Below are positions 4,471 to 32,630 of a stretch of DNA of 32,655 bases, piece after piece. This DNA comes from an uncultured Candidatus Saccharibacteria bacterium (GTDB taxonomy: Bacteria > Patescibacteriota > Saccharimonadia > Saccharimonadales > Saccharimonadaceae): assembly GCA_948435375.1 (NCBI GenBank), contig CAOJGQ010000010.1, forward strand, positions 1 to 32,655, in the 5' to 3' direction. A program made the translations under genes and the position numbers. Every line of letters begins with the position of its first letter. Positions within the stretch are counted from its first letter, which is position 1. The notes under the pieces were generated by a model. It was not told the DNA's origin and searched no databases. It worked only from the letters and a program-made list of their open reading frames with translations.

Positions 4471-4520
4471 AGTGTAGGCTTCATTACTATTAATTTTTCG
4501 TCAAACCAGAATCAGAAACC
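4471..4520 (+). repeat. R repeat, copy 2
   Basis: Nearly identical to copy 1: GTAGGCTTCATTACTATTAA, then TTTTTCGTCAAACCAGAA. It separates the outer arm of HP1 from the tail of cassette 3. Confidence 0.8.
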
Positions 4521-4543
4521 TGAAATTTGGTGGTCGTTGGTTG

Positions 4544-4729
4544 GGACCGTAAAGCCAGTCCAACGATGGCTGCTGCGCGACGGGTAGACGATAACGCTAT
4601 TGAAACTGAGGTAGTACGCATAGGACCTTGACGGGTAGGCGCTGACTCCCCAGTAGTAGCCATTGGCGCCCGCGTCCCTCAAAGAACCGATATTCATATT
4701 CAGATTCCCGCCACGAGTTAGATATATAG
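4544..4729 (-). repeat. FISUMP-like cassette 3 (tight family)
   Basis: Complete cassette: I-Y-L-T-R-G-G, N-I-G-S-L-R-D-A-G, G-Y-Y-W-G-V-S-A-Y, tip R-S-S-H (cgc, agc, agc, cat) and R-W-T-G-F-T-V. Its 5' half matches cassette 16 base for base over about 27 codons; the 3' half differs at NNY codons. An open frame runs from an ATG at 4862 through palindrome P1 and the flank into the cassette (116 residues, ending at 4512), but the upstream part resembles no domain I know. Confidence 0.85.
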
Positions 4730-4830
4730 AATATCCATAGATGTTTATATAGTACAAATCATATCTAAAAACATAACAAAAACCTTTACTAACCCAGAGA
4801 CTTTCAATTTTAATAGAGACAAAAGCTGGG

Positions 4831-4858
4831 TCAACTTGTAACGGCGTTACAAGTTCAA
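4831..4858. repeat. P palindrome, copy 1
   Basis: Near-perfect inverted repeat AACTTGTAAC / GTTACAAGTT around a short centre, preceded by TTTAATAGAGAC. It lies midway between the divergent cassettes 3 and 4. Confidence 0.8.
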
Positions 4859-4960
4859 ACATATAACATCTCTCTTAAATTAAAGAAAGGTTGGGCTAGT
4901 AGAGGTTTTTATTGTAGATTTTGTTTTTCTTTTATGCATATTAGACATCTACTAATTCTT

Positions 4961-14220: not shown

Positions 14221-14451
14221 GTTTGACGTAAGAAATATCCCTTGACTAAGTTGTTTGGTGGGGGTGTTTCGGAATTGATGCCTTGCGCCGAGCGCTAACT
14301 GCTAGTTTTTCCGATGGAACGCAAAGGTTCCGCGGACGTAACCGCGCTGACCTTTGCTAAAACTACCAGTTAGCTATCGGGCTCGGCATTTTTATATTCC
14401 GAAACACCCCCACCAAACAACTTAGCTCTAGTTGACTTCTTTTTGTCAAAC
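14221..14451. repeat. Giant hairpin after efp (HP2)
   Basis: The region folds on itself almost end to end. A perfect 29-bp arm pair lies at 14246-14274 and 14397-14425. Outer GTTTGAC / GTCAAAC close the base, and inner AACTG..AGTTTT / AAAACT..AGTT and an apex GCAAAGGT / ACCTTTGC with GCGG / CCGC complete it. Both outer edges carry R-like sequence (TTCTT..GTCAAAC) in inverted orientation. It lies between efp and cassette 6. Confidence 0.8.
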
Positions 14452-14488
14452 AGAGTTAGAACCCCGGGAATCGCTGGCTGGCTTGGCT

Positions 14489-14674
14489 GAACCATAAAGC
14501 CACCCCAACGATTTGCATTGCTTGACGAGAGGATATAACCATCATTGAAAGCAAGAACATATGCAAAGAAAGAGGATGCGTAAGCAGTGTTAGGCCAGCC
14601 GTAACCACTAAAACTTGCATCTCTCAAAGAACCAGTTGTTATATCTACCACCCCGCCACGAGTTAGATATATAG
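14489..14674 (-). repeat. FISUMP-like cassette 6
   Basis: Complete cassette: head, D-I-T-T-G-S-L-R-D-A, a degenerate core (Y-G-W-P-N-T-A-Y) and R-W-G-G-F-M-V. The frame from 14651 stays open through the tail into the right arm of HP2 (93 residues, ending at 14370). It is divergent from the tight family. It faces away from cassette 7 across palindrome P3. Confidence 0.78.
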
Positions 14675-14859: not shown

Positions 14860-15125
14860 CTATATATCTAACCTCGCAACTAACGTTGCTCCCACAGTCG
14901 TAGCGTCCAAAAAGAAAACAAGTTTCCTTTTGTCCTACAGCCACTCCTGTGGTTCGTGGCGGGAATGTAGATGTGGATGCTGGTGCTTTGCGAGGTACAG
15001 TATATGCTGGCTTATATTGGTCGTCGACGGCTGGTTTGCTAGCGCCTTATGCTTATATCTTAGATTTTTACGACTCGAATATTCGTCCATCGCGAGATAG
15101 CGATCGTTGGAATGGCTTTACGGTT
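14860..15125 (+). repeat. FISUMP-like cassette 7, interrupted in the head
   Basis: The head starts normally (CTATATATCTAAC), is broken by 81 foreign bases, and resumes with TCGTGGCGGG. The body then reads G-A-L-R-G-T-V-Y-A-G-L-Y-W-S-S-T-A, A-Y-I-L-D-F-Y and R-W-N-G-F-T-V. The GTG at 14949 opens a 68-residue frame to 15155, but as a gene this is clearly broken. Confidence 0.78.
14873..14953. mobile_element. 81-bp insertion in the head of cassette 7
   Basis: It splits the otherwise invariant CTAAC-TCGTGG junction. It contains CCACAG near one side and CTGTGG at the other, with an inner AAAAGGAAA-type pairing, so it could be a small MITE-like element. A target duplication is not clear. It is seen once in the window. 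Confidence 0.45.
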
Positions 15126-15170
15126 GGAGGATTCTGGCTGATGGTTAGATATTAAACATTACCGAAACTC

Positions 15171-15357
15171 TTATATATCTAACTCGTGGCGGGTTTCTAG
15201 AAATTAAAACTGGCTCTTTGCGAACACTAGGGCATTCTGGCGTCTTCTGGCTTAAAACAGCTGCCTCATCATCCACCGACGCGTACAGCTTAGACTTCAG
15301 CAGCATCAATGCCTACTTGTCAGCTTCTTACGTCCGTTTTTTAGGCTTTACGGTCCA
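15171..15357 (+). repeat. FISUMP-like cassette 8
   Basis: Head with one change (TTATATATCTAAC), body K-T-G-S-L-R-T-L-G, V-F-W-L-K-T-A-A, D-A-Y-S-L-D-F, and F-L-G-F-T-V-Q, where the usual R-W is lost. It reads in one frame through a 23-base spacer directly into cassette 9, so an open frame from 15218 covers both. Confidence 0.75.
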
Positions 15358-15380
15358 AAGTAAAAGCAATTCCGATTCTC

Positions 15381-15567
15381 CTATATATCTAACTCGTGGC
15401 GGGAATCTAAGCAAGACCTCTGGCTCTTTGAGGCGTGCGGGCGATTACGGCACCTACTGGGTCAATACCGCTGATTCTTCTATAGATTTTGCTTACAACC
15501 TTTATTTCAATAGTGCCCTTGTCCTGCCATCAGATTACAACCCTGGTTGGTACGGCTTTACGGACCG
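15381..15567 (+). repeat. FISUMP-like cassette 9, in frame with cassette 8
   Basis: Second unit of a head-to-tail pair: S-P-I-Y-L-T-R-G-G, T-S-G-S-L-R-R-A-G, G-T-Y-W-V-N-T-A, A-Y-N-L-Y-F-N-S and G-W-Y-G-F-T. The shared 130-residue frame ends at 15610. The in-frame tandem shows that units can join without frame loss. Confidence 0.78.
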
Positions 15568-15601
15568 GCGCAAACTTCAGTCATCTTTTTTGTCGTGCAT
15601 C

Positions 15602-15787
15602 GGACCATAAAGCCATACCAACGCGAAAGGCTATATGATGGATAAGTGCTTATGCTATCCAGATTAAAAACGTACGACGTTATCAAGGACGCATGTGCGG
15701 TGCTAGACCACTCATAACCATTATCGCTTGCATATCTCAAGGTACCCATAGTTTCATTCACATACCCGCCACGAGTTAGATATATAG
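15602..15787 (-). repeat. FISUMP-like cassette 10
   Basis: Complete cassette: head, M-G-T-L-R-Y-A-S, Y-E-W-S-S-T-A, S-L-S-R-W-Y-G-F-M-V. Its tail meets the tail of cassette 9 and its head ends 12 bases before the extended -10 of the peptidase gene. It is a divergent copy. Confidence 0.78.
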
Positions 15788-15798
15788 GAGATTCGGGG

Positions 15799-15807
15799 TG
15801 GTATAAT
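15799..15807 (+). promoter_or_regulatory. Extended -10 promoter of the peptidase gene
   Basis: TGGTATAAT with TATAAT at 15802-15807, about 24 bases before the ATG. It is followed by GAAGGAG as ribosome site, so this gene has a leader. The -35 region would overlap the head of cassette 10 and is weak. Confidence 0.6.
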
Positions 15808-15831
15808 GAGAGGAATAAGAGAAGGAGCAAA

Positions 15832-18122: not shown

Positions 18123-18306
18123 CTATATATCTAACTTGTGGCGGGAGTTTGAACAGGATTTTTGGGGTTTTGCGACGAGCGGGCGGTAATGGAAGCTATT
18201 GGCTATCGACTGCAAGTCCCCGTATGTTTTATGCGTACTTTCTGGATTTTGGCGATAAAATAGAAGTTTCGCGAGATAGCGATCGGTATAATGGCTTTAC
18301 GGTTCG
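18123..18306 (+). repeat. FISUMP-like cassette 11
   Basis: Head with one change (ACTTGTGGCGGG), body G-V-L-R-R-A-G-G-N-G-S-Y-W-L-S-T, F-Y-A-Y-F-L-D-F and R-Y-N-G-F-T-V. The tail meets that of cassette 12. It is a divergent copy. Confidence 0.77.
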
Positions 18307-18325
18307 GGATTAATTTTTGGTGGAT

Positions 18326-18511
18326 GGACCGCAAAGCCATACCAACGATCGACGTTGTACGACGGGAAGACGCTAGCGCTATTGATAACGAGGTAGTACG
18401 CAGAGAGCTCTGACGGGTAGGTAGGGATAGCCCAGTAGTAGCCATTGCTGCCCGCGTCCCTCAAAGAGCCAGTAGTCATATACACGTTCCCGCCACGAGT
18501 TAGATATATAG
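18326..18511 (-). repeat. FISUMP-like cassette 12 (tight family)
   Basis: Complete: I-Y-L-T-R-G-G-N-V, M-T-T-G-S-L-R-D-A-G, G-Y-Y-W-A-I-P-T-Y, tip Y-N-V-D (tac, aac, gtc, gat) and R-W-Y-G-F-A-V. Head to tail with cassette 13 on the minus strand. Confidence 0.85.
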
Positions 18512-18547
18512 GAATATTAGAAGATGTATTAATCTCATTTTTTAGAC

Positions 18548-18735
18548 CCAAACCGTAAAGCCGCTCCAACGATTGCTGCTGCTCGACGGGTAGACGCTAG
18601 AGCTATCGAAATGGAGATTGTACGCATAGAGCTCTGAGGGGTCGGTAGTGCTAGCCCAGTAGAAGCCAACGATGCCCGCGTACCTCAAAGAGCCAGTAGA
18701 CATATCCACGTCCCCGCCACGAGTTAGATATATAG
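18548..18735 (-). repeat. FISUMP-like cassette 13 (tight family)
   Basis: Complete: D-V-D-M-S-T-G-S-L-R-Y-A-G, F-Y-W-A-S-T-T-D-P-S-E-L, tip S-S-S-N (agc, agc, agc, aat) and R-W-S-G-F-T-V-W. Its upstream flank, up to palindrome P4, is homologous to the flanks of cassettes 3, 7 and 16. A 73-residue frame runs from 18763. Confidence 0.85.
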
Positions 18736-18835
18736 GAGAATCGTATATGTTTATATAACCCAAGTATATTTAAAAACCAACCAAAAAGCTTTTACTAACC
18801 CCAAAATCTCCAAATTTAACAGAGACAATTCTTGT

Positions 18836-18864
18836 TTGAACTTGTAACGCTGTTACAAGTTCAA
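18836..18864. repeat. P palindrome, copy 4
   Basis: TTGAACTTGTAAC / GTTACAAGTTCAA around GCT, preceded by TTTAACAGAGACAA. It lies between the divergent cassettes 13 and 14. Confidence 0.85.
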
Positions 18865-18906
18865 CGTTCAAAGTTCCATTTCCAACTTCAATCATCTCAG
18901 AATATT

Positions 18907-19090
18907 CTATATATACTAACTCGTGGCGGGAATGTTGCTCTTGAGACTGGTGCTTTGTGGGGCGCAGGTGATTATGGTTATTTGTGGACCGCGAGCGCTA
19001 ATACATTTCTCTATGCTTATTCTTTTGCCTTTGATAATTCAATTGCTTATGCATCGCATTATAGTAATCGGTGGTTTGGCTTTACGGTCT
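18907..19090 (+). repeat. FISUMP-like cassette 14, next to pilM
   Basis: Head with one extra base (CTATATATACTAAC), which shifts the frame, then E-T-G-A-L-W-G-A-G-D-Y-G-Y-L-W-T-A-S, A-Y-S-F-A-F and R-W-F-G-F-T-V. A 104-residue frame from 18832 spans palindrome P4 and the cassette. It ends about 50 bases before the pilM -10 box. Confidence 0.77.
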
Positions 19091-19141
19091 GGGGCTCGTG
19101 GAAGATTGAAAATAGTTATTGTCAAACGAGATGTTTATGTT

Positions 19142-19147
19142 TATAAT
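19142..19147 (+). promoter_or_regulatory. -10 box of the pilM-pilB genes (leaderless)
   Basis: TATAAT with six bases before the ATG at 19154. A longer in-frame start at 18923 would run through cassette 14 and is rejected. Confidence 0.65.
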
Positions 19148-19153
19148 GGAAAT

Positions 19154-20200
19154 ATGAGTTTAATCCATGGAGTGGGCGATTTCTTCGCATTAGATATTGG
19201 GACAACCGCGATTCGGTTAATTCAGCTGGCTGGGGATGCGCAGCATGGTTGGGTTTTGCAAAAGTTTGCGTATGTGCCGATGGACCGTAAGACGCTAGAA
19301 GACAGTTCGGCGGCTGGACGGCGACATCTGGGTGAGATTATTCTTGGCGCAATGCAACAAGCTGGAATCACGACGAAAAATGTGGCAGTTGGAATGCCGG
19401 CGGGGAAGACCTTCACGACGGTGATTAAGGTAGAAAATCAGGCGGAAAAGGACGTTCTGAATGGGGTGAAATATCAGCTGGATAAATATATTCCGATGGC
19501 GATTGATGATGCGACGGTGGATTTTGTGTCGCTGGGGGTTTGCCCGATTGATGCGACGAAGGTGGAAGTTTTGATTTCTTCGACGGCGGCGGATTTTGCG
19601 GAAGAGCGGATGGAAATGATTGAATCGTTCGACCTTAATGTGGTGGCGCAGGAGCCAGAATCGATTGCGATGGCGCGGGCTTTGATGCCGGTGGGAGCGA
19701 CGGATGCGCGGTTGATTATTGATCTCGGCGAACATTCGACTGACCTCGTGATGATGTATAAGGGTGCGCCGCGTTTGGTGCGGTCGGTGCCGGGTGGTTT
19801 TTCGGTGTTTGTGAAGACAGTTTCGTCGTCGTTGAATGTGAAAGAAGAGCAGGCGCGACAGTTTATCCTGAAATTTGGTCTAGCGCAGGATAAGGTTGAG
19901 GGACAAGTTTTCCGGGCGCTCGATTCGACGCTGGAGAGCTTCACGTCAGAATTGAATAAGTCGATTAGCTTTTTCCGTTCGGAATATATGAATACGCCGG
20001 TCGGTGGGACGGTTTTGTCGGGTTTTGCGGGAATGATTCCATTTATTGCGGAGTATATTGAGGCGAAAACAAATGTGACGACGACGCAAGGGAATCCTTG
20101 GCAGCTGGTGAAAGTTTCGCCGGAGCAACAACGCGTTTTGCAACCAGTGGCGAGCGAATTTGCGGTAGCGATTGGGCTGGCAGAAAGGAGTAATGACTAA
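19154..20200 (+). CDS. pilM: Type IV pilus assembly protein PilM
   Basis: 348 residues, the usual size for this actin-like cytoplasmic ATPase, which docks on the PilN tail and links the inner-membrane platform to the motors. The first phosphate loop is A-L-D-I-G-T-T-A-I-R-L (about 11-21). The second, I-I-D-L-G-E-H-S-T-D-L (near 197-207), and the G-G-F-S-V-F region agree with the SHS2/actin fold of PilM. The stop codon overlaps the pilN start by one base, so translation is coupled. It is the first gene of the platform operon. Confidence 0.93.
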   Translation: MSLIHGVGDFFALDIGTTAIRLIQLAGDAQHGWVLQKFAYVPMDRKTLEDSSAAGRRHLGEIILGAMQQAGITTKNVAVGMPAGKTFTTVIKVENQAEKDVLNGVKYQLDKYIPMAIDDATVDFVSLGVCPIDATKVEVLISSTAADFAEERMEMIESFDLNVVAQEPESIAMARALMPVGATDARLIIDLGEHSTDLVMMYKGAPRLVRSVPGGFSVFVKTVSSSLNVKEEQARQFILKFGLAQDKVEGQVFRALDSTLESFTSELNKSISFFRSEYMNTPVGGTVLSGFAGMIPFIAEYIEAKTNVTTTQGNPWQLVKVSPEQQRVLQPVASEFAVAIGLAERSND

Positions 20201-21573
20201 TGAAAGATTGGTGGCAAAAAATTAAGGATGCGGTAACGGGGAAGAACAAGAGCAACGAACCGCAGCTTGTCACGACGGTCAATACGGCCTATGAGATCAA
20301 CTTGGTACCAGAAGTGAAAGCCGAGATGATTAAATCGCTAAAAATGCGGAATATGGTTCTGTTTATTTGTATTGTGGTTTCGGCGGCAGCAGTTGGGCTA
20401 GTGGCAATCTTGTTCAGTATCAAGAGTGGTCAAGATATCGCAATGGCGACGCAGGACAAGAAACTTGAGACTTTGTCGGCGAAATTGTTAGGTTATGAAG
20501 AGCTGGATGATTTGGTCGCGATTCAAGGACAGCTTTCGGCCTTGTCGAATATTGCGGAGAATAAGAAAATTTTGTCGCGGACTTTTGGGGCGCTGGGGGT
20601 GATGTTGCCGGAGGGAGAAGATTCGGTGCAACTTTCGCAGTTGAGAGTGAATCTTGAGAATAATACGCTTTTGATGGAAGGTCAGGCGGATGCGCGGAAG
20701 GCGCCGTTGATTGACTATCGAGTGCTCGAATCGTTCAAGAAGGGCGTGGCGTTGACAAAATATGATTATGGGCGCTATGTTGATGTGGACGGCAATGAGA
20801 TCCCGACTTGGTGTATTGCGGAAACTGACAATGGGATGGCTTTGAAGGAAGGTGAAAGCTATTATGCTTGGTGGGATTTGACGAAGGATGGTTGCGCGGC
20901 GACACTGAAAGGTTCTAGCAAGGCAGATACGACGACTTTGCACTATGGTGAGGATGCGACGACTGAATCAGAAGAGCGACCAGTGCAGGAAGTAGAAGGA
21001 GAGAATACCGACGAGAGCAATGCTGATGGGGGGGATGAGGGAAATCCTGAAGAGGGCAACCCGGATGAGAACATGGAGACGAATGGCGAAGAGAATAATG
21101 GTGAGCCAAAGATGGAAAACGTGGTGACACGAGTGAAGATTTGGCGCACGCCACAATATGAGAAGTGGTATAAGAGTGGAAAAATGGAGCTTCAAGGGGA
21201 GATTCGCGGGGTAGAACATTTCGTGAGTGAGTGTACGACCTATTCGGGTGTGGCGGTTGGATCGACGGCGAAGTGGACCTCTAATAATGATTGTATGTTA
21301 GCGCCGGATGGGCTTTCGGTAACAACATCAAGTAACGCACGCAACGAAAGTGGTAATCTAGTTTTGAAGTTTACTGCGACGACGGTGGTTGATCCGAGCT
21401 TCTATCTTTTCCGTAACAAACATATGATTGCGATTGGCCCGATGGGGCAGAACGTGACTGATTCATATGTCCAGATCCAAGGGATGTTCACACAAGAGGC
21501 AACGGAGTGTGACGAAAATGATGCGGATTGTCTAAACAATACGACAAACACAGGAGGAAACTCAAATGAATAA
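20200..21573 (+). CDS. pilN: PilN-like type IV pilus inner-membrane protein with acidic insertion
   Basis: 457 residues, more than twice a typical PilN (about 180-200). The short cytoplasmic tail carries Y-E-I-N-L-V-P (residues about 29-35), the PilM-binding motif. One membrane helix follows (about 48-72) and then a coiled periplasmic stretch. The extra length is in the extracytoplasmic part: a Glu/Asn/Gly-rich acidic linker (about 250-305) separates two Cys-containing regions (for example T-W-C-I-A, G-C-A-A, E-C-T-T-Y). Position between pilM and pilO supports the call. The C-terminus overlaps pilO by eight bases. The added domain is not one I recognise. Confidence 0.85.
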   Translation: MKDWWQKIKDAVTGKNKSNEPQLVTTVNTAYEINLVPEVKAEMIKSLKMRNMVLFICIVVSAAAVGLVAILFSIKSGQDIAMATQDKKLETLSAKLLGYEELDDLVAIQGQLSALSNIAENKKILSRTFGALGVMLPEGEDSVQLSQLRVNLENNTLLMEGQADARKAPLIDYRVLESFKKGVALTKYDYGRYVDVDGNEIPTWCIAETDNGMALKEGESYYAWWDLTKDGCAATLKGSSKADTTTLHYGEDATTESEERPVQEVEGENTDESNADGGDEGNPEEGNPDENMETNGEENNGEPKMENVVTRVKIWRTPQYEKWYKSGKMELQGEIRGVEHFVSECTTYSGVAVGSTAKWTSNNDCMLAPDGLSVTTSSNARNESGNLVLKFTATTVVDPSFYLFRNKHMIAIGPMGQNVTDSYVQIQGMFTQEATECDENDADCLNNTTNTGGNSNE

Positions 21574-22441
21574 GGATGACACAAAAGCGAGTGGTAAGCG
21601 CTTAAAGATTTCCAAGGCGCAGCAGTATACGATGTTGGAAGTTTTGGGGGCGAGCTTGATTCTCGGGACTTGTATGGTGATTTCGTTGTTTTTGTTCAAG
21701 TATATTAAGTTCAACACTGAGATTATTACGCAAAAAGGTACAGCGATTAATGAATATGATCAGACTTTGCGTAATGTCGGGATTTGTAAGGATGCGGACA
21801 AGAATGGGCGCTTGAACGGTAAGGAGCTGGATAATTGTAACCCGGGTGAGTTGTCGCTGAATGATGTGCAGGGAAGTTTGCGCTATAACGTGATTGATAC
21901 GATGGCGCAGAACGAAGATCTCGAAACGGTGGCGCGGAAACGCGAGGAAGATTGTTACGATGCGGATGGGAAGAAGATTGATTTCTATGAATTGTATGAA
22001 AAGTCGGATGACGATCTCGAGAAGCAACAATATCTCCAGTTGACGAAGATTTGTTCAGCGCTGAGGGTGATTCCGGATGCTTTACCAGCGCAAAGAAACG
22101 CGGAAGCTTTGATGGCGAGTGTGAACCAGATTTTTATCCTGTCGAACTGGGAGCCGGAAACTTTGTCGCCAAGAGAGGATGCAGTGATGTCGCCGATTAA
22201 AGGGGTAGGCGTGATTCCGACGACGCTAAGGATTGAAGGTTCGGATGGAGTAACGATGACGACTTTGAATAATCTGGAACATTCGATTCGTGATTTTGAC
22301 GTAACTTCGGCAGTGTTTGAATGGACGAATACGGGGATTAGTATGCAGGCTTCAGCGAATGCGTATTATCTCAATCAAGCTAGTGAGCTGGAGACGACGC
22401 GAACGGTTTATGCTTCGAAGAAAGCAAAGGAGACAAAATGA
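21566..22441 (+). CDS. pilO: PilO-like type IV pilus protein with a Cys-bracketed EF-hand loop
   Basis: 291 residues against about 200 for a typical PilO, the partner of PilN in the inner-membrane ring. One membrane helix (about 24-48) follows a basic N-terminus. Just beyond it, residues 74-91 read Cys-x16-Cys enclosing D-A-D-K-N-G-R-L-N-G-K-E, a canonical 12-residue EF-hand loop (76-87). The rest is probably the periplasmic PilO fold. It starts inside the end of pilN and overlaps the next gene by four bases (ATGA), so all are translationally coupled. The PilO call rests on order and topology more than on sequence motifs. Confidence 0.75.
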   Translation: MNKDDTKASGKRLKISKAQQYTMLEVLGASLILGTCMVISLFLFKYIKFNTEIITQKGTAINEYDQTLRNVGICKDADKNGRLNGKELDNCNPGELSLNDVQGSLRYNVIDTMAQNEDLETVARKREEDCYDADGKKIDFYELYEKSDDDLEKQQYLQLTKICSALRVIPDALPAQRNAEALMASVNQIFILSNWEPETLSPREDAVMSPIKGVGVIPTTLRIEGSDGVTMTTLNNLEHSIRDFDVTSAVFEWTNTGISMQASANAYYLNQASELETTRTVYASKKAKETK

Positions 22442-22776
22442 AACAATCAGATATTTTCACACTAGTTTTGATTGCGGGGATTGGGACCTTGGCGGCTTTC
22501 TTGGCTTGTAATGCGATTATGGGGGATCCGAACAAAGCTTCGGTGAAGTTTAAGGCGTTGACTGGTGTGATTGAGAGTAGTCTGGCAGAGCCGGACCCAG
22601 AAGTTTTCAATAGTTATGCGATTAATCCGACGGTGGAAGTTTATGTGGGGGATTGTGAGGATATTGATCGGAACGGAATCTTGGATGCGGCGGAATTGAT
22701 TGTATGCGGCAAGCTGGCGCCGGAAGAAGAGCCGACGGATGAAGCGGCTGAGGAGCAAGAAATAGAAAAGGAGTAA
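22438..22776 (+). CDS. Small pilus-operon membrane protein (PilP position) with EF-hand loop
   Basis: 112 residues. An N-terminal hydrophobic helix (about 6-26) is followed by a short extracytoplasmic domain. Residues 73-90 form Cys-x16-Cys around D-I-D-R-N-G-I-L-D-A-A-E (EF-hand loop 75-86), with the same spacing as in PilO. The C-terminus is strongly acidic (about 93-112). It lies where pilP lies in proteobacterial operons, but I see no homology to PilP. No lipobox is evident despite Cys24. A structural partner of PilO is likely by context. Confidence 0.8.
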   Translation: MKQSDIFTLVLIAGIGTLAAFLACNAIMGDPNKASVKFKALTGVIESSLAEPDPEVFNSYAINPTVEVYVGDCEDIDRNGILDAAELIVCGKLAPEEEPTDEAAEEQEIEKE

Positions 22777-22778
22777 AA

Positions 22779-24545
22779 GTGGCGCTGCTGACGAAGGATG
22801 GACTAGATCGGGTAGTTGGGCTCTTGATTGATGAGGGTCTGGTTGATGCTGTCGCAGTGGCGAGCGTGCAAGAAGAGGTGGCGCAGACTAAGCAACCGCT
22901 CATGGCGATGCTTTCAGCGAAAAAGATTGTGAATGATAGCATGGTGGTGCACGCGACGGCGGTTTTGACCGGTGTGCCATATGTGAATCTTCTGCACGTG
23001 GAAATGGGGCAAGATGTCTTGTCGTTACTGTCGTTTGATGTAGCAGAGCGGTCGATGGCTGTGCCGCTGGGTGAGCAAAACGGTCAGCTAGTAGTGGCGA
23101 TGCTGGATGTCGGGAACGTCCAGGCCGTGGACTATCTGTCGACTTTGACGGGGAAACAAGTGCGAGCGGTGATGTCGTCGAGCGATGGTATTCAGGCGAT
23201 TTTGAAACAATATCGCGGGGACTTTTCGAGTGTTAAACAGGCAGTACGGACGACGAATCGCGAAGTTGAGCAGCGGCGAGAAAATAGTGACGTAAAGACA
23301 ATCACGCAGGATTCGCCGATTTCGAAAGCATTGACCTCGATTTTGGATTTTGCGGTGAAATCGAAAGCATCAGACATTCATATTGAGCCGCTGGAAAATA
23401 GTTTGATTATCCGATGTCGGATTGACGGTGTGCTTCGGAAAGTGATGGATTTGCCGCGGGCGATTGAACCGGCGTTAGTATCGCGAATCAAGATTTTGGC
23501 GAACTTGAAGATTGACGAACATCGTATTCCGCAGGACGGTCAGTTTGCGGTGGCAGTGGGGGATCGTGAGGTCGACTTGCGTATTGCGATTAGTCCGGTG
23601 GTGTGGGGGGAGCAGGTGGTGATTCGTTTGCTGGATAAGAGCGGATCGAGTATGGAAATTGAGGATATGGGGATGACCGGGCGAGCGCTAAGGACGGTGA
23701 TGGCGGGGATTGCGCGACCGAATGGAATGATTTTGACTTCAGGTCCAACTGGTTCAGGTAAAAGTACGACGCTCTATGCGTTGATTAAGAAGATTAAGAG
23801 TGAAAAAATTAACATTGTGACGCTGGAAGATCCGGTGGAATATAAGATGGACGGAGTGAACCAGATTCAGGTGAATGTGGATGCGGGGTTGACTTTTGCG
23901 TCAGGGCTCAGGTCGATTTTGCGTCAAGACCCGGACGTGGTGATGGTGGGGGAGATTCGTGATGCGGAGACGGCAAACTTGGCGGTGCAGGCGAGTTTGA
24001 CGGGACATTTGGTGTTTTCGACCTTGCATACGAACTCGGCGGCGGGGATTTTGCCGCGTCTTCTCGATATGGGGATTGAGCCGTTTTTGCTGGCGTCGAC
24101 GCTAAACACGGTGATTGGCCAGCGTTTGGTGCGACGAGTGGCACCAAAACGAGCGGCAGTGCCGAGCAATGAGATGCAGACGCAAGAAATTAATGATTTT
24201 GTGGGGGATTTGTTGCCGAAAAATAGCGCGGAAGCTGAGTCGGTGAGCGAGGATCTCGGTTATCCGAATTTGCCGGTAGCGGGGCAGGAGAGTTATAATC
24301 TCGTGCGAGGAGTAGATGATCAGGAGACGCCGGGTGGTTATCTCGGGCGAACGGGGCTTTATGAAGCGATTGATGTGGATGAGGATATCCAGAAACTAAT
24401 CGTGTCGCGAGCAACCTCGAATGAAATTATGCGGACGGCGAAGGAGAAGGGGACGATCACCTTGCGGCAGGACGGGATTTTGAAGGCGCTTTCGGGGATA
24501 ACAACGATTGAGGAAGTAAATCGGGTGGCGAGTGATTTGGCCTAA
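22779..24545 (+). CDS. pilB: Type IV pilus extension ATPase PilB
   Basis: 588 residues, a GspE/PilB-family hexameric motor that drives pilin assembly from the cytoplasm. The N-terminal MshEN-like domain covers about 1-135. The ATPase follows with H-I-E-P (about 203-206), Walker A G-P-T-G-S-G-K-S-T (about 322-330), the Asp box L-E-D-P-V-E-Y, Walker B V-M-V-G-E-I-R-D and the His box G-H-L-V-F-S-T-L-H-T. The CxxC...CxxC zinc module usual before the G-Y-x-G-R motif is absent; a Cys-free acidic stretch stands in its place while G-Y-L-G-R is kept. It starts with GTG behind AAAGGAG, two bases after the small gene. Confidence 0.95.
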   Translation: MALLTKDGLDRVVGLLIDEGLVDAVAVASVQEEVAQTKQPLMAMLSAKKIVNDSMVVHATAVLTGVPYVNLLHVEMGQDVLSLLSFDVAERSMAVPLGEQNGQLVVAMLDVGNVQAVDYLSTLTGKQVRAVMSSSDGIQAILKQYRGDFSSVKQAVRTTNREVEQRRENSDVKTITQDSPISKALTSILDFAVKSKASDIHIEPLENSLIIRCRIDGVLRKVMDLPRAIEPALVSRIKILANLKIDEHRIPQDGQFAVAVGDREVDLRIAISPVVWGEQVVIRLLDKSGSSMEIEDMGMTGRALRTVMAGIARPNGMILTSGPTGSGKSTTLYALIKKIKSEKINIVTLEDPVEYKMDGVNQIQVNVDAGLTFASGLRSILRQDPDVVMVGEIRDAETANLAVQASLTGHLVFSTLHTNSAAGILPRLLDMGIEPFLLASTLNTVIGQRLVRRVAPKRAAVPSNEMQTQEINDFVGDLLPKNSAEAESVSEDLGYPNLPVAGQESYNLVRGVDDQETPGGYLGRTGLYEAIDVDEDIQKLIVSRATSNEIMRTAKEKGTITLRQDGILKALSGITTIEEVNRVASDLA

Positions 24546-29668: not shown

Positions 29669-29857
29669 CTATATATCTAACTCGTGGCGGGAATCTGAAT
29701 ATGAATATCGGTTCTTTGAGGGACGCGGGCGCCAATGGCTACTACTGGGGAGTCAGCGCCTACCCGTCAAGGTCTTATGCGTACTACCTCAATTTTAATA
29801 GCGTTAACGTCTACCCGTCGGACAGCGACGCCGGTCGTTGGTACGGCTTTACGGTCC
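29669..29857 (+). repeat. FISUMP-like cassette 16 (tight family)
   Basis: Complete: I-Y-L-T-R-G-G, M-N-I-G-S-L-R-D-A-G, G-Y-Y-W-G-V-S-A-Y, a five-residue tip D-S-D-A-G (gac, agc, gac, gcc, ggt) and R-W-Y-G-F-T-V-R. The tip has one codon more than the other tight copies. The ATG at 29701 opens a 70-residue frame to 29913. The 5' half is identical to cassette 3. Confidence 0.85.
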
Positions 29858-29901
29858 GATACGAAGCTAGAAAAGCTGTTTTTAATAGAGAAAAAATGAA
29901 G

Positions 29902-29930
29902 TTGAACTTGTAACAGCGTTATAAGTTCAA
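29902..29930. repeat. P palindrome, copy 6
   Basis: TTGAACTTGTAAC / GTTATAAGTTCAA around AGC, with one G-T imperfection. TTTAATAGAG lies upstream. It sits between convergent tails, as does copy 2. Confidence 0.75.
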
Positions 29931-29951
29931 TGAGTGAAAAGGTGTTTTTCT

Positions 29952-30137
29952 GGACCGTAAAGCCACTCCAACGAGCGTTAGTACGCGATGGGGCGAGCGT
30001 ACTCCTACTCATATCGATAGCATAAGTCTCGTACTTTAATACGGGCGCCGTAATTGACCACAAGAAGCTATCGGTATTGCCATATCTCAAAGCCCCAGCT
30101 TGCTCGTCAATTGTCCCGCCACGAGTTAGATATATAG
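29952..30137 (-). repeat. FISUMP-like cassette 17
   Basis: Head intact, E-Q-A-G-A-L-R-Y-G, F-L-W-S-I-T-A, Y-A-I-D-M-S and R-W-S-G-F-T-V-Q. The tail and the following bases match cassette 5 closely. Its head begins 20 bases after the recombinase stop codon. It is a divergent copy. Confidence 0.78.
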
Positions 30138-30157
30138 GAGATAAGGTGAAGTTATTA

Positions 30158-31102
30158 TTAGTCGGAGCTGGTTTCGGTGTGGAAACGGTCGTGGACTTCT
30201 TTGAGGTGGGGGTCGGTGACATGGGTGTAAATTTGGGTAGTGGAGATGTCGGAATGGCCGAGCATAGCCTGGACCGATCGCAAATCGGCGCCATTCATGA
30301 GGAGGTCGGTGGCGAAACTATGGCGCAGGGTGTGGGGCGAAACATGCTTCGTGATGCCGGCGAGTTTGGCGTATTTTTGGACAATACGTTCAATCGAACG
30401 GGCGGTGAGGCGGCGAAAATTGCCGGAGACGTCGGGTGAGGTTTGGTTTTTGCTGTTATTGAGAAAAAGCGGGACAAGGGAATCAGTGCGGGCGGCGAGA
30501 TATTCGCTGACGCGATCGGCGGCGGCTTCGGAAATGAAAATTGGTCGGTCTTTGTTGCCTTTACCACGAATCATAAATTCGCGACGTTCGAGATTGATTG
30601 AATCACGGTTGAGCTTGACGATTTCGGAAACTCGTAGTCCGCCAGAAAATAAAAGTTCGATAATTGCACGGTCGCGGAGACCAGTTTCGGTCGTTAAGTC
30701 AATCTCATTCAATAAGCGTTCAACCTCGTCGTAATGGAGGAAGGTAACTTGTTTGCGGGTGATTTTTGGCAGTTCGACTAGTGTAGGATCGAGAGATTTG
30801 ATATTACGTTTGGCGAGGTATTTAAGAAAACCGCGTAGAGCGATGAGGTGATAGGCTTGGGTAATGGCTTCGAGACCAGCACCGTGTTCGTCGGTAACGC
30901 GGTTGAGGCGGAGGCGAAATTTGCGCAGTAGCTCGGCGTCGATGTCGCTGGGCTTGAGGTCGTCGTTTTTGCCGGAAAGTTCGCCGGCCAGGTTGAGAAA
31001 TCGAATGAGATAACGCTCGTAATTCTCGGCGGTTTTGATTGAACGGCCTTTTTCGATTTCGAGATGTTCGATATAATCGCCAATTAGTTCGGAAATATAC
31101 AT
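30158..31102 (-). CDS. XerC/XerD-type tyrosine recombinase
   Basis: 314 residues, close to XerC/XerD (about 300). The N-terminal SAM-like core-binding domain (about 1-100) is followed by the catalytic domain with the full set of residues: Arg157 (S-G-G-L-R-V-S-E), Lys181 (G-K-G-N-K), His257 and Arg260 (H-T-L-R-H-S-F-A-T), His283 (L-G-H) and the nucleophile Tyr292 (I-Y-T-H-V). Such enzymes resolve chromosome dimers at dif with FtsK, which is also encoded here. Integrase-like use on other sites cannot be excluded, since it lies between a cassette cluster and a tRNA gene. The start at 31102 follows a -10 box by six bases. Confidence 0.9.
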   Translation of the reverse strand: MYISELIGDYIEHLEIEKGRSIKTAENYERYLIRFLNLAGELSGKNDDLKPSDIDAELLRKFRLRLNRVTDEHGAGLEAITQAYHLIALRGFLKYLAKRNIKSLDPTLVELPKITRKQVTFLHYDEVERLLNEIDLTTETGLRDRAIIELLFSGGLRVSEIVKLNRDSINLERREFMIRGKGNKDRPIFISEAAADRVSEYLAARTDSLVPLFLNNSKNQTSPDVSGNFRRLTARSIERIVQKYAKLAGITKHVSPHTLRHSFATDLLMNGADLRSVQAMLGHSDISTTQIYTHVTDPHLKEVHDRFHTETSSD

Positions 31103-32213: not shown

Positions 32214-32630
32214 AGCAAAAGTATTTTGTTCAACAAGGGAATATTAGAGATTCCTGCGTTTTTGTTGGGGACTAAGGCAACCAGTGGTCAACCATTGGAT
32301 CGTGAGGATAGCTTCTATAGACTACTGCTAGCGTATGGGTATCCGAAGACTGGTGGCTACGAGATCAACGGAGGTAATGGGTACACTCCTATCCTTAAAG
32401 GGCCAAATCAAAACATCTCCGAATCTCCTATATATCTAACTCGTGGCGGGTACGTGAATATAACTACTGGCTCTTTGAGGGGCGCGGGCTACGGTGGCTA
32501 CTACTGGGCTAGCACTGCCTACCCATCAGAGCTCTATGCGTACAACCTCCATTTCAATAGCACTAACGTCTTCCCGTCGCACTACGACCATCGTTGGGTC
32601 GGCTTTACGGTCCGGTGCCTAGCAAAGTAG
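32214..32630 (+). pseudogene. 5'-truncated FISUMP-like gene with cassette 18 (tight family)
   Basis: The longest FISUMP fragment in the window. The open frame begins after a stop at 32211 and reads L-L-G-T-K, E-D-S-F-Y-R-L-L-L-A-Y-G, G-P-N-Q-N-I-S-E-S-P-I-Y-L-T-R-G-G, then the cassette from 32428: G-S-L-R-G-A-G, Y-Y-W-A-S-T-A-Y-P-S-E-L, tip H-Y-D-H (cac, tac, gac, cat), R-W-V-G-F-T-V-R-C and a stop at 32628. The only plausible start is a TTG at 32226 without a ribosome site, and no signal or prepilin leader is present. The 5' part has been lost. It shows what normally precedes the cassette and that the natural C-terminus lies a few residues after G-F-T-V-R-C. Confidence 0.75.

Follow-up and report, generated by a model that had tools for sequence, protein, structure and literature searches.

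Cysteine-bracketed EF-hand-like loops in PilO and an adjoining small type IV pilus protein of Saccharibacteria

PilO and the small, unnamed type IV pilus (T4P) protein encoded directly after it in an uncultured Candidatus Saccharibacteria bacterium each contain a 12-residue EF-hand-like loop set between two cysteines, with identical spacing in the two proteins. The reading that we favor, at a probability of roughly 0.55, is that both motifs would be solitary, extracytoplasmic EF-hand-like loops, stapled by a disulfide, in which Ca2+ has a structural role; of the two, the one in the small protein is constrained, and its PilO counterpart is convergent and labile.

Results

Two matched loops in overlapping genes

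In the window (the whole stretch of DNA analysed, 32,655 nucleotides), the PilO motif reads C74-K-D76-A-D-K-N-G-R-L-N-G-K-E87-L-D-N-C91 and that of the small protein C73-E-D75-I-D-R-N-G-I-L-D-A-A-E86-L-I-V-C90 (Table 1). Both conform to C-x-D-x-D-x-N-G-x-L-x-x-x-E-x3-C, the 12-residue loop begins two residues past the first cysteine in each, and both have the EF-hand ligands at positions 1, 3, 5, 9 and 12 and the glycine at position 6. The preliminary description of this DNA, which had noticed two matching Cys-x16-Cys EF-hand loops in neighboring coupled genes, is borne out by the identical spacing, the ATGA overlap of the genes, and the rarity of the pattern described below. It had placed the pair at 21787-22707, of which the end is exact and the start falls on the third base of the Cys74 codon, the true start being 21785.

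Table 1. Coordinates of the pilus genes and cysteine-bracketed motifs in the window
Feature	Position	Strand	Remarks
pilN	20200-21573	+	457 aa; upstream partner of pilO; no EF loop
pilO	21566-22441	+	291 aa, N-in; from sequence reading and AF2 model
PilO Cys74-x16-Cys91 with EF-hand-like loop D76-E87	21785-21838	+	residues 74-91, CKDADKNGRLNGKELDNC
PilO 12-codon EF-hand-like loop	21791-21826	+	DADKNGRLNGKE; one of the genome's two pattern matches
Second PilO Cys pair, Cys130 to Cys163	21953-22054	+	just before SALRVIPDALP; no EF loop
Small T4P protein gene (unnamed)	22438-22776	+	112 aa
ATGA overlap of pilO stop and small-protein start	22438-22441	+	translational coupling
Small-protein Cys73-x16-Cys90 with EF-hand-like loop D75-E86	22654-22707	+	residues 73-90, CEDIDRNGILDAAELIVC
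Small-protein 12-codon EF-hand-like loop	22660-22695	+	DIDRNGILDAAE; second of the genome's two pattern matches
pilB assembly ATPase	22779-24545	+	downstream; Walker/GSPII ATPase motifs; operon context

Both strands of the 908,884-base assembly were scanned with the back-translated pattern D-x-[DN]-x-[DN]-G-x-[NTN codon]-x3-E, such that all genome-wide loop counts are counts of DNA-pattern matches. The assembly contains two matches, which are the PilO loop and the small-protein loop; base composition predicts about 0.11 loops, or about 0.0001 (1e-4) with both cysteines, and a reversed control pattern had 0 matches on the two strands of the same assembly. Across 30 congeneric genomes the pattern matched 52 times, 34 of them within the PilO/small-protein pair by our count, and the control pattern matched 7 times. 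At 10 of 11 places read outside the gene pair, an ORF contains the loop, and Cys bracketing is absent from all 10 of these ORFs, which include an acetate kinase tail, a PhoH-like protein and arginyl-tRNA synthetase (names are from our reading of the sequences). The acetate kinase-like ORF of several relatives (L282, L283, L284, L285, L286) has an added EF-hand-like loop at its extreme C terminus, without cysteines (e.g., DTNKDGEVSDEELK).

The PilO loop lies in an insert outside the conserved fold

By fold and gene order, the 291-residue protein is PilO. Its AF2 model (pLDDT 81) consists of a long TM/coiled-coil helix (residues 17-71), two Cys-closed inserts and a ferredoxin-like core (172-272), the permuted ferredoxin-like core following TM helix and coiled coil as in the PilO fold. 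The best PDB match is P. aeruginosa PilO, 2rjz (Z 11.1, rmsd 2.3 over 90 residues), a match that covers residues 178-270 only, and PulM and GspL are also among the structural matches. The Pfam profile PF04350 did not match the window PilO and matched 11 of 88 congeners weakly (best 7.7e-5). The position of the gene fits a pilM-N-O-(x)-B-T-C locus, and in almost every relative pilO and the small-protein gene overlap or come close to abutting. The Cys loop is not part of the PilO core but sits directly past helix 17-71; in the model the entering helix ends at residue 71, the loop has a pLDDT of about 81-89, and an exit helix is predicted at 85-89.

Elsewhere in the window, short ORF fragments that lie between genes at many places, on either strand, have in common the sequence SPIYLTRGGxVxxxTGSLRxAGxxGYYWxSTAYPSELYAYxLxFxSxxVYPSxxxxRWxGFTV (180-488 -, 4512-4862 -, 14370-14651 -, 14949-15155 +, 15218-15610 +, 15558-15830 -, 18297-18763 -, 18832-19146 +, 29767-30294 - and 32226-32630 +). 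They resemble scattered partial cassettes of one surface domain and are possibly recombination donors.

The small protein is an order-wide pilus component

The small protein has a TM helix (residues 3-28), a linker, an FNxxAINPTVEVYVG core, the Cys-closed loop and an acidic tail. A profile of its invariant core (A3), made up of the TM helix and FNxxAINPTVEVxIG, had a single match in each of 158 genomes out of the 195 from the class; these cover most other families of the order, and few genomes outside the order were positive; in the 26 non-genus loci read, the match lies directly after pilO. The protein is an order-wide, unnamed T4P component, located between pilO and pilB in the loci read, for which no Pfam, NCBIfam or PDB match was found (the PDB was searched with its profile). 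Pfam and NCBIfam profile searches of the window proteins gave nothing useful, and no relatives of the small protein were found in phage records. Judged by its position, it could replace PilP. AF2 gives its loop a pLDDT of about 81-89 and predicts the exit helix at 84-89; this model shows no entering helix such as a true EF hand has, which weighs against the EF-hand-like reading.

The EF loop persists beside hypervariable tails. Five relatives (L015, L017, L018, L021, L142) have extra modules of the C-P-D-G-T-x-C type past the loop, again with even Cys counts. The small protein of L166 has a second Cys-EF-Cys unit and that of L007 has three consecutive units, the arrangement recorded for the small protein of genome G049 (L281, 2726-3191, reverse-strand coordinates).

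Cysteines of both proteins come in even numbers

All 146 scored small-protein sequences have 0, 2, 4 or 6 cysteines after the anchor, and 115 of 116 scored congeneric PilO sequences have 4, counts that exclude sequences whose anchor pattern failed. Since extracytoplasmic Cys counts are even, they point to disulfides. The genome encodes two membrane-anchored DsbA-like proteins, with CTAC and CPYC; searches for a VKOR family protein in this genome and other congeners, and for DsbD in 12 genomes, found neither. This result, and the reducing nature of gut habitats, weigh against the stapled-loop reading. The disulfide lock outside the membrane that had been proposed is correctly placed on the extracytoplasmic side, and its closure is made very probable by the invariance of the PilO cysteines, the even counts and the two DsbA-like proteins.

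The two loops have different histories

Among 133 distinct congeneric loci, 22 have both loops, 32 only the small-protein loop, 79 neither, and 0 only the PilO loop, so that the small-protein loop is present in 54 loci, including all 22 with a PilO loop. In these 54 small proteins D1, G6 and E12 are fixed (invariance that is partly built in, since loop calling fixed these three positions), positions 3, 5 and 9 are D/N or D/S/N, and the free positions vary widely. At the group level the invariance is not circular, because every genus tip outside one 79-tip clade passes. The PilO Cys pair is essentially invariant over the 133 loci, and Cys74, Cys91, Cys130 and Cys163 are all kept in 88 of 88 aligned congeneric PilO sequences. 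The commonest congeneric form of the PilO loop is C-x-x-P-x-G-x-x-Y-S-D-E-E-L-K-x-C, which is one residue shorter and lacks DxD. Four more PilO loops (L004, L132, L142, L156) retain D1, D/N3, D/N5 and E12 and have Gly6 substituted.

We mapped both traits by two-state likelihood on a tree of PilN and PilO from which the motif columns had been removed. The PilO loop was gained once and lost about 11 times, and the small-protein loop was gained once and lost once; for a paired test of correlated change on this tree, the small-protein trait changes just twice. In the 42-tip clade that spans all PilO loops, 22 tips have the strict PilO loop and all 42 have the small-protein loop. Thus, an alignment of close homologues, which had been suggested as the check that could overturn the motifs, gives a divided answer: the PilO Asp/Glu ligands have disappeared from most of the genus and, repeatedly, within their own clade, the PilO cysteines are retained, and the small-protein loop is retained in every member of its group.

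Other genera and the sister genus suggest the order of these changes. In the other genera read, PilO has no insert and the small protein either stops soon after NPTVEVxIG or bears a non-EF Cys tail, and in the sister genus its tail is a short Cys-Cys one that lacks EF ligands. Together with the tree, these forms indicate that the staples are the oldest element, followed by the small-protein loop and last by the PilO loop. Judged from the sequences, the small-protein loop is a constrained site, and the PilO loop appears young, labile and convergent.

Discussion

If both motifs are disulfide-stapled calcium loops, how might they work? Oxidation of each Cys pair after export, possibly by the DsbA-like proteins, would form a ring of 18 residues. 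With Ca2+ outside the cell in the millimolar range, the ligands D1, D3, N5, backbone 7, position 9 and E12 could then take up one Ca2+, making the ring rigid. The small-protein ring would cap the C-terminal segment directly past the conserved INPTVEVYVG strand, and the PilO ring, just past the end of the TM/coiled-coil helix, would decorate an insert outside the PilO fold. The PilO ligands arose once, probably by convergence, in a lineage where the small-protein loop was already present, and were then lost repeatedly with the disulfide retained. Assuming that the two proteins are in contact, a likely role would be to stiffen the PilN-PilO-small-protein assembly in the cell-wall zone, rather than to act as an on/off switch.

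An alternative is that the disulfide is the functional element, with the acidic residues just making a loop that is soluble and rich in turns, that leaves Ca2+ unbound at physiological levels and whose ligands drift. We consider this rather unlikely. In its favor, the PilO cysteines outlast the ligands throughout the genus, and the majority PilO form retains the Gly and exit-helix Glu without DxD. Since its ligands are labile, the PilO loop may indeed be neutral. However, every ligand position is right in both proteins at once, although the genome contains no further loop of this kind, the ligand positions of the small protein stay fixed in 54 loci while their neighbors vary, and L007 carries the loop in triplicate. 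The fixed ligands, together with the genome-wide rarity, the 30-genome counts and the base-composition expectation, also bear on whether an acidic loop simply fell by chance between unrelated cysteines; EF-like loops are short, but conservation refutes this idea and we give it almost no weight. Only slightly less improbable is that the small protein was the source of the PilO loop, through gene conversion or an exon-like duplication. Cys spacing and loop register are identical, as copying would predict, but the PilO Cys pair is older than the EF ligands and intermediate PilO forms exist. Because two loops that share a genome show no significant excess of similarity over loops of separate genomes (identity 0.47 within genomes vs 0.455 permuted, p 0.07; free positions, p 0.24), convergence is favored over copying, and gene conversion between the two loops is unsupported.

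It has also been suggested that the loops form a shared calcium site. That the motifs are non-random and have canonical ligands holds up; a single conserved shared site is unsupported, and the strong form of the idea fails because the small-protein loop is stable and the PilO ligands are not. Could the two loops nevertheless be one calcium-responsive unit that governs how the pilus extends or retracts, a role put forward for PilY1? The genes adjoin, are coupled and serve the same machine, a PilO EF loop never occurs without a small-protein EF loop (22 vs 0; Fisher p 1e-10, with shared ancestry ignored), and Ca2+ control of retraction by PilY1 has been reported (PMC4471445). However, the nesting rests on one gain and is therefore one event, 20 of the 42 members of the PilO-EF clade lack the strict PilO loop and keep the small-protein loop, neither a switch element nor a PilY1 domain is present, and the effect on piliation is disputed even among PilY1 homologues (PMC4471445). 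We regard such a unit as improbable, and retraction control of the PilY1 type, with no PilY1 fold and no evidence of a switch, is an analogy only.

A broader reading is more speculative. In Saccharibacteria, type IV pili aid in locating host bacteria and holding on to them (PMC12206443). A T4P alignment subcomplex with disulfide-locked Ca2+ sites, in the small protein and in some species in PilO too, might allow outside calcium to set the stability or activity of the pilus motor; we consider this doubtful, but if true, calcium outside the cell would tune an episymbiont's pilus motor. The order of events is of interest in itself, with a disulfide staple first and Ca2+-type ligands later, separately in two adjacent proteins.

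How do the loops compare with known systems? Like EF hands (Pfam PF00036 / PF13202), they have a 12-residue D-x-D-x-[DN]-G-x-[hydrophobic]-x3-E loop and an exit helix; unlike them, they are single, unpaired and disulfide-closed, and the small protein has no predicted entering helix. The EF-hand profile did not match the window proteins even at E 1, with weak matches in some relatives (best 0.0011). Extracytoplasmic DxDxDG loops associated with cysteines occur in thrombospondin type 3 repeats, bacterial TSP3 (PF18884) and Excalibur (PF05901). The window loops differ from these Ca2+ repeats in that each single loop is bracketed by two cysteines at a fixed x16 spacing, usually in one copy, in a pilus alignment protein; the TSP3_bac and Excalibur profiles did not match the window proteins, and TSP3_bac matched one relative weakly (0.0054). 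With the alignment proteins PilO, GspM and PulM, the window PilO has in common the fold over residues 172-272 and the gene position after pilN. To our knowledge, known PilO structures have no Cys inserts, and PilO of the other genera read differs from the window PilO in lacking the first insert.

PilY1/PilC proteins have a C-terminal EF-hand-like Ca2+ site (PMC4471445, PMC13190605) and thus resemble PilO and the small protein in being type IV pilus proteins with an EF-hand-like motif, a functional analogy at most. PilY1 is a secreted beta-propeller tip protein, whereas PilO and the small protein are membrane-anchored parts of the inner machine; both are short with a TM helix, and no C-terminal beta-propeller was found in their AF2 models or profiles. 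Our literature search uncovered no calcium site described for PilO or for its partners in the membrane; on calcium with PilN/PilO it gave only work on PilY1.
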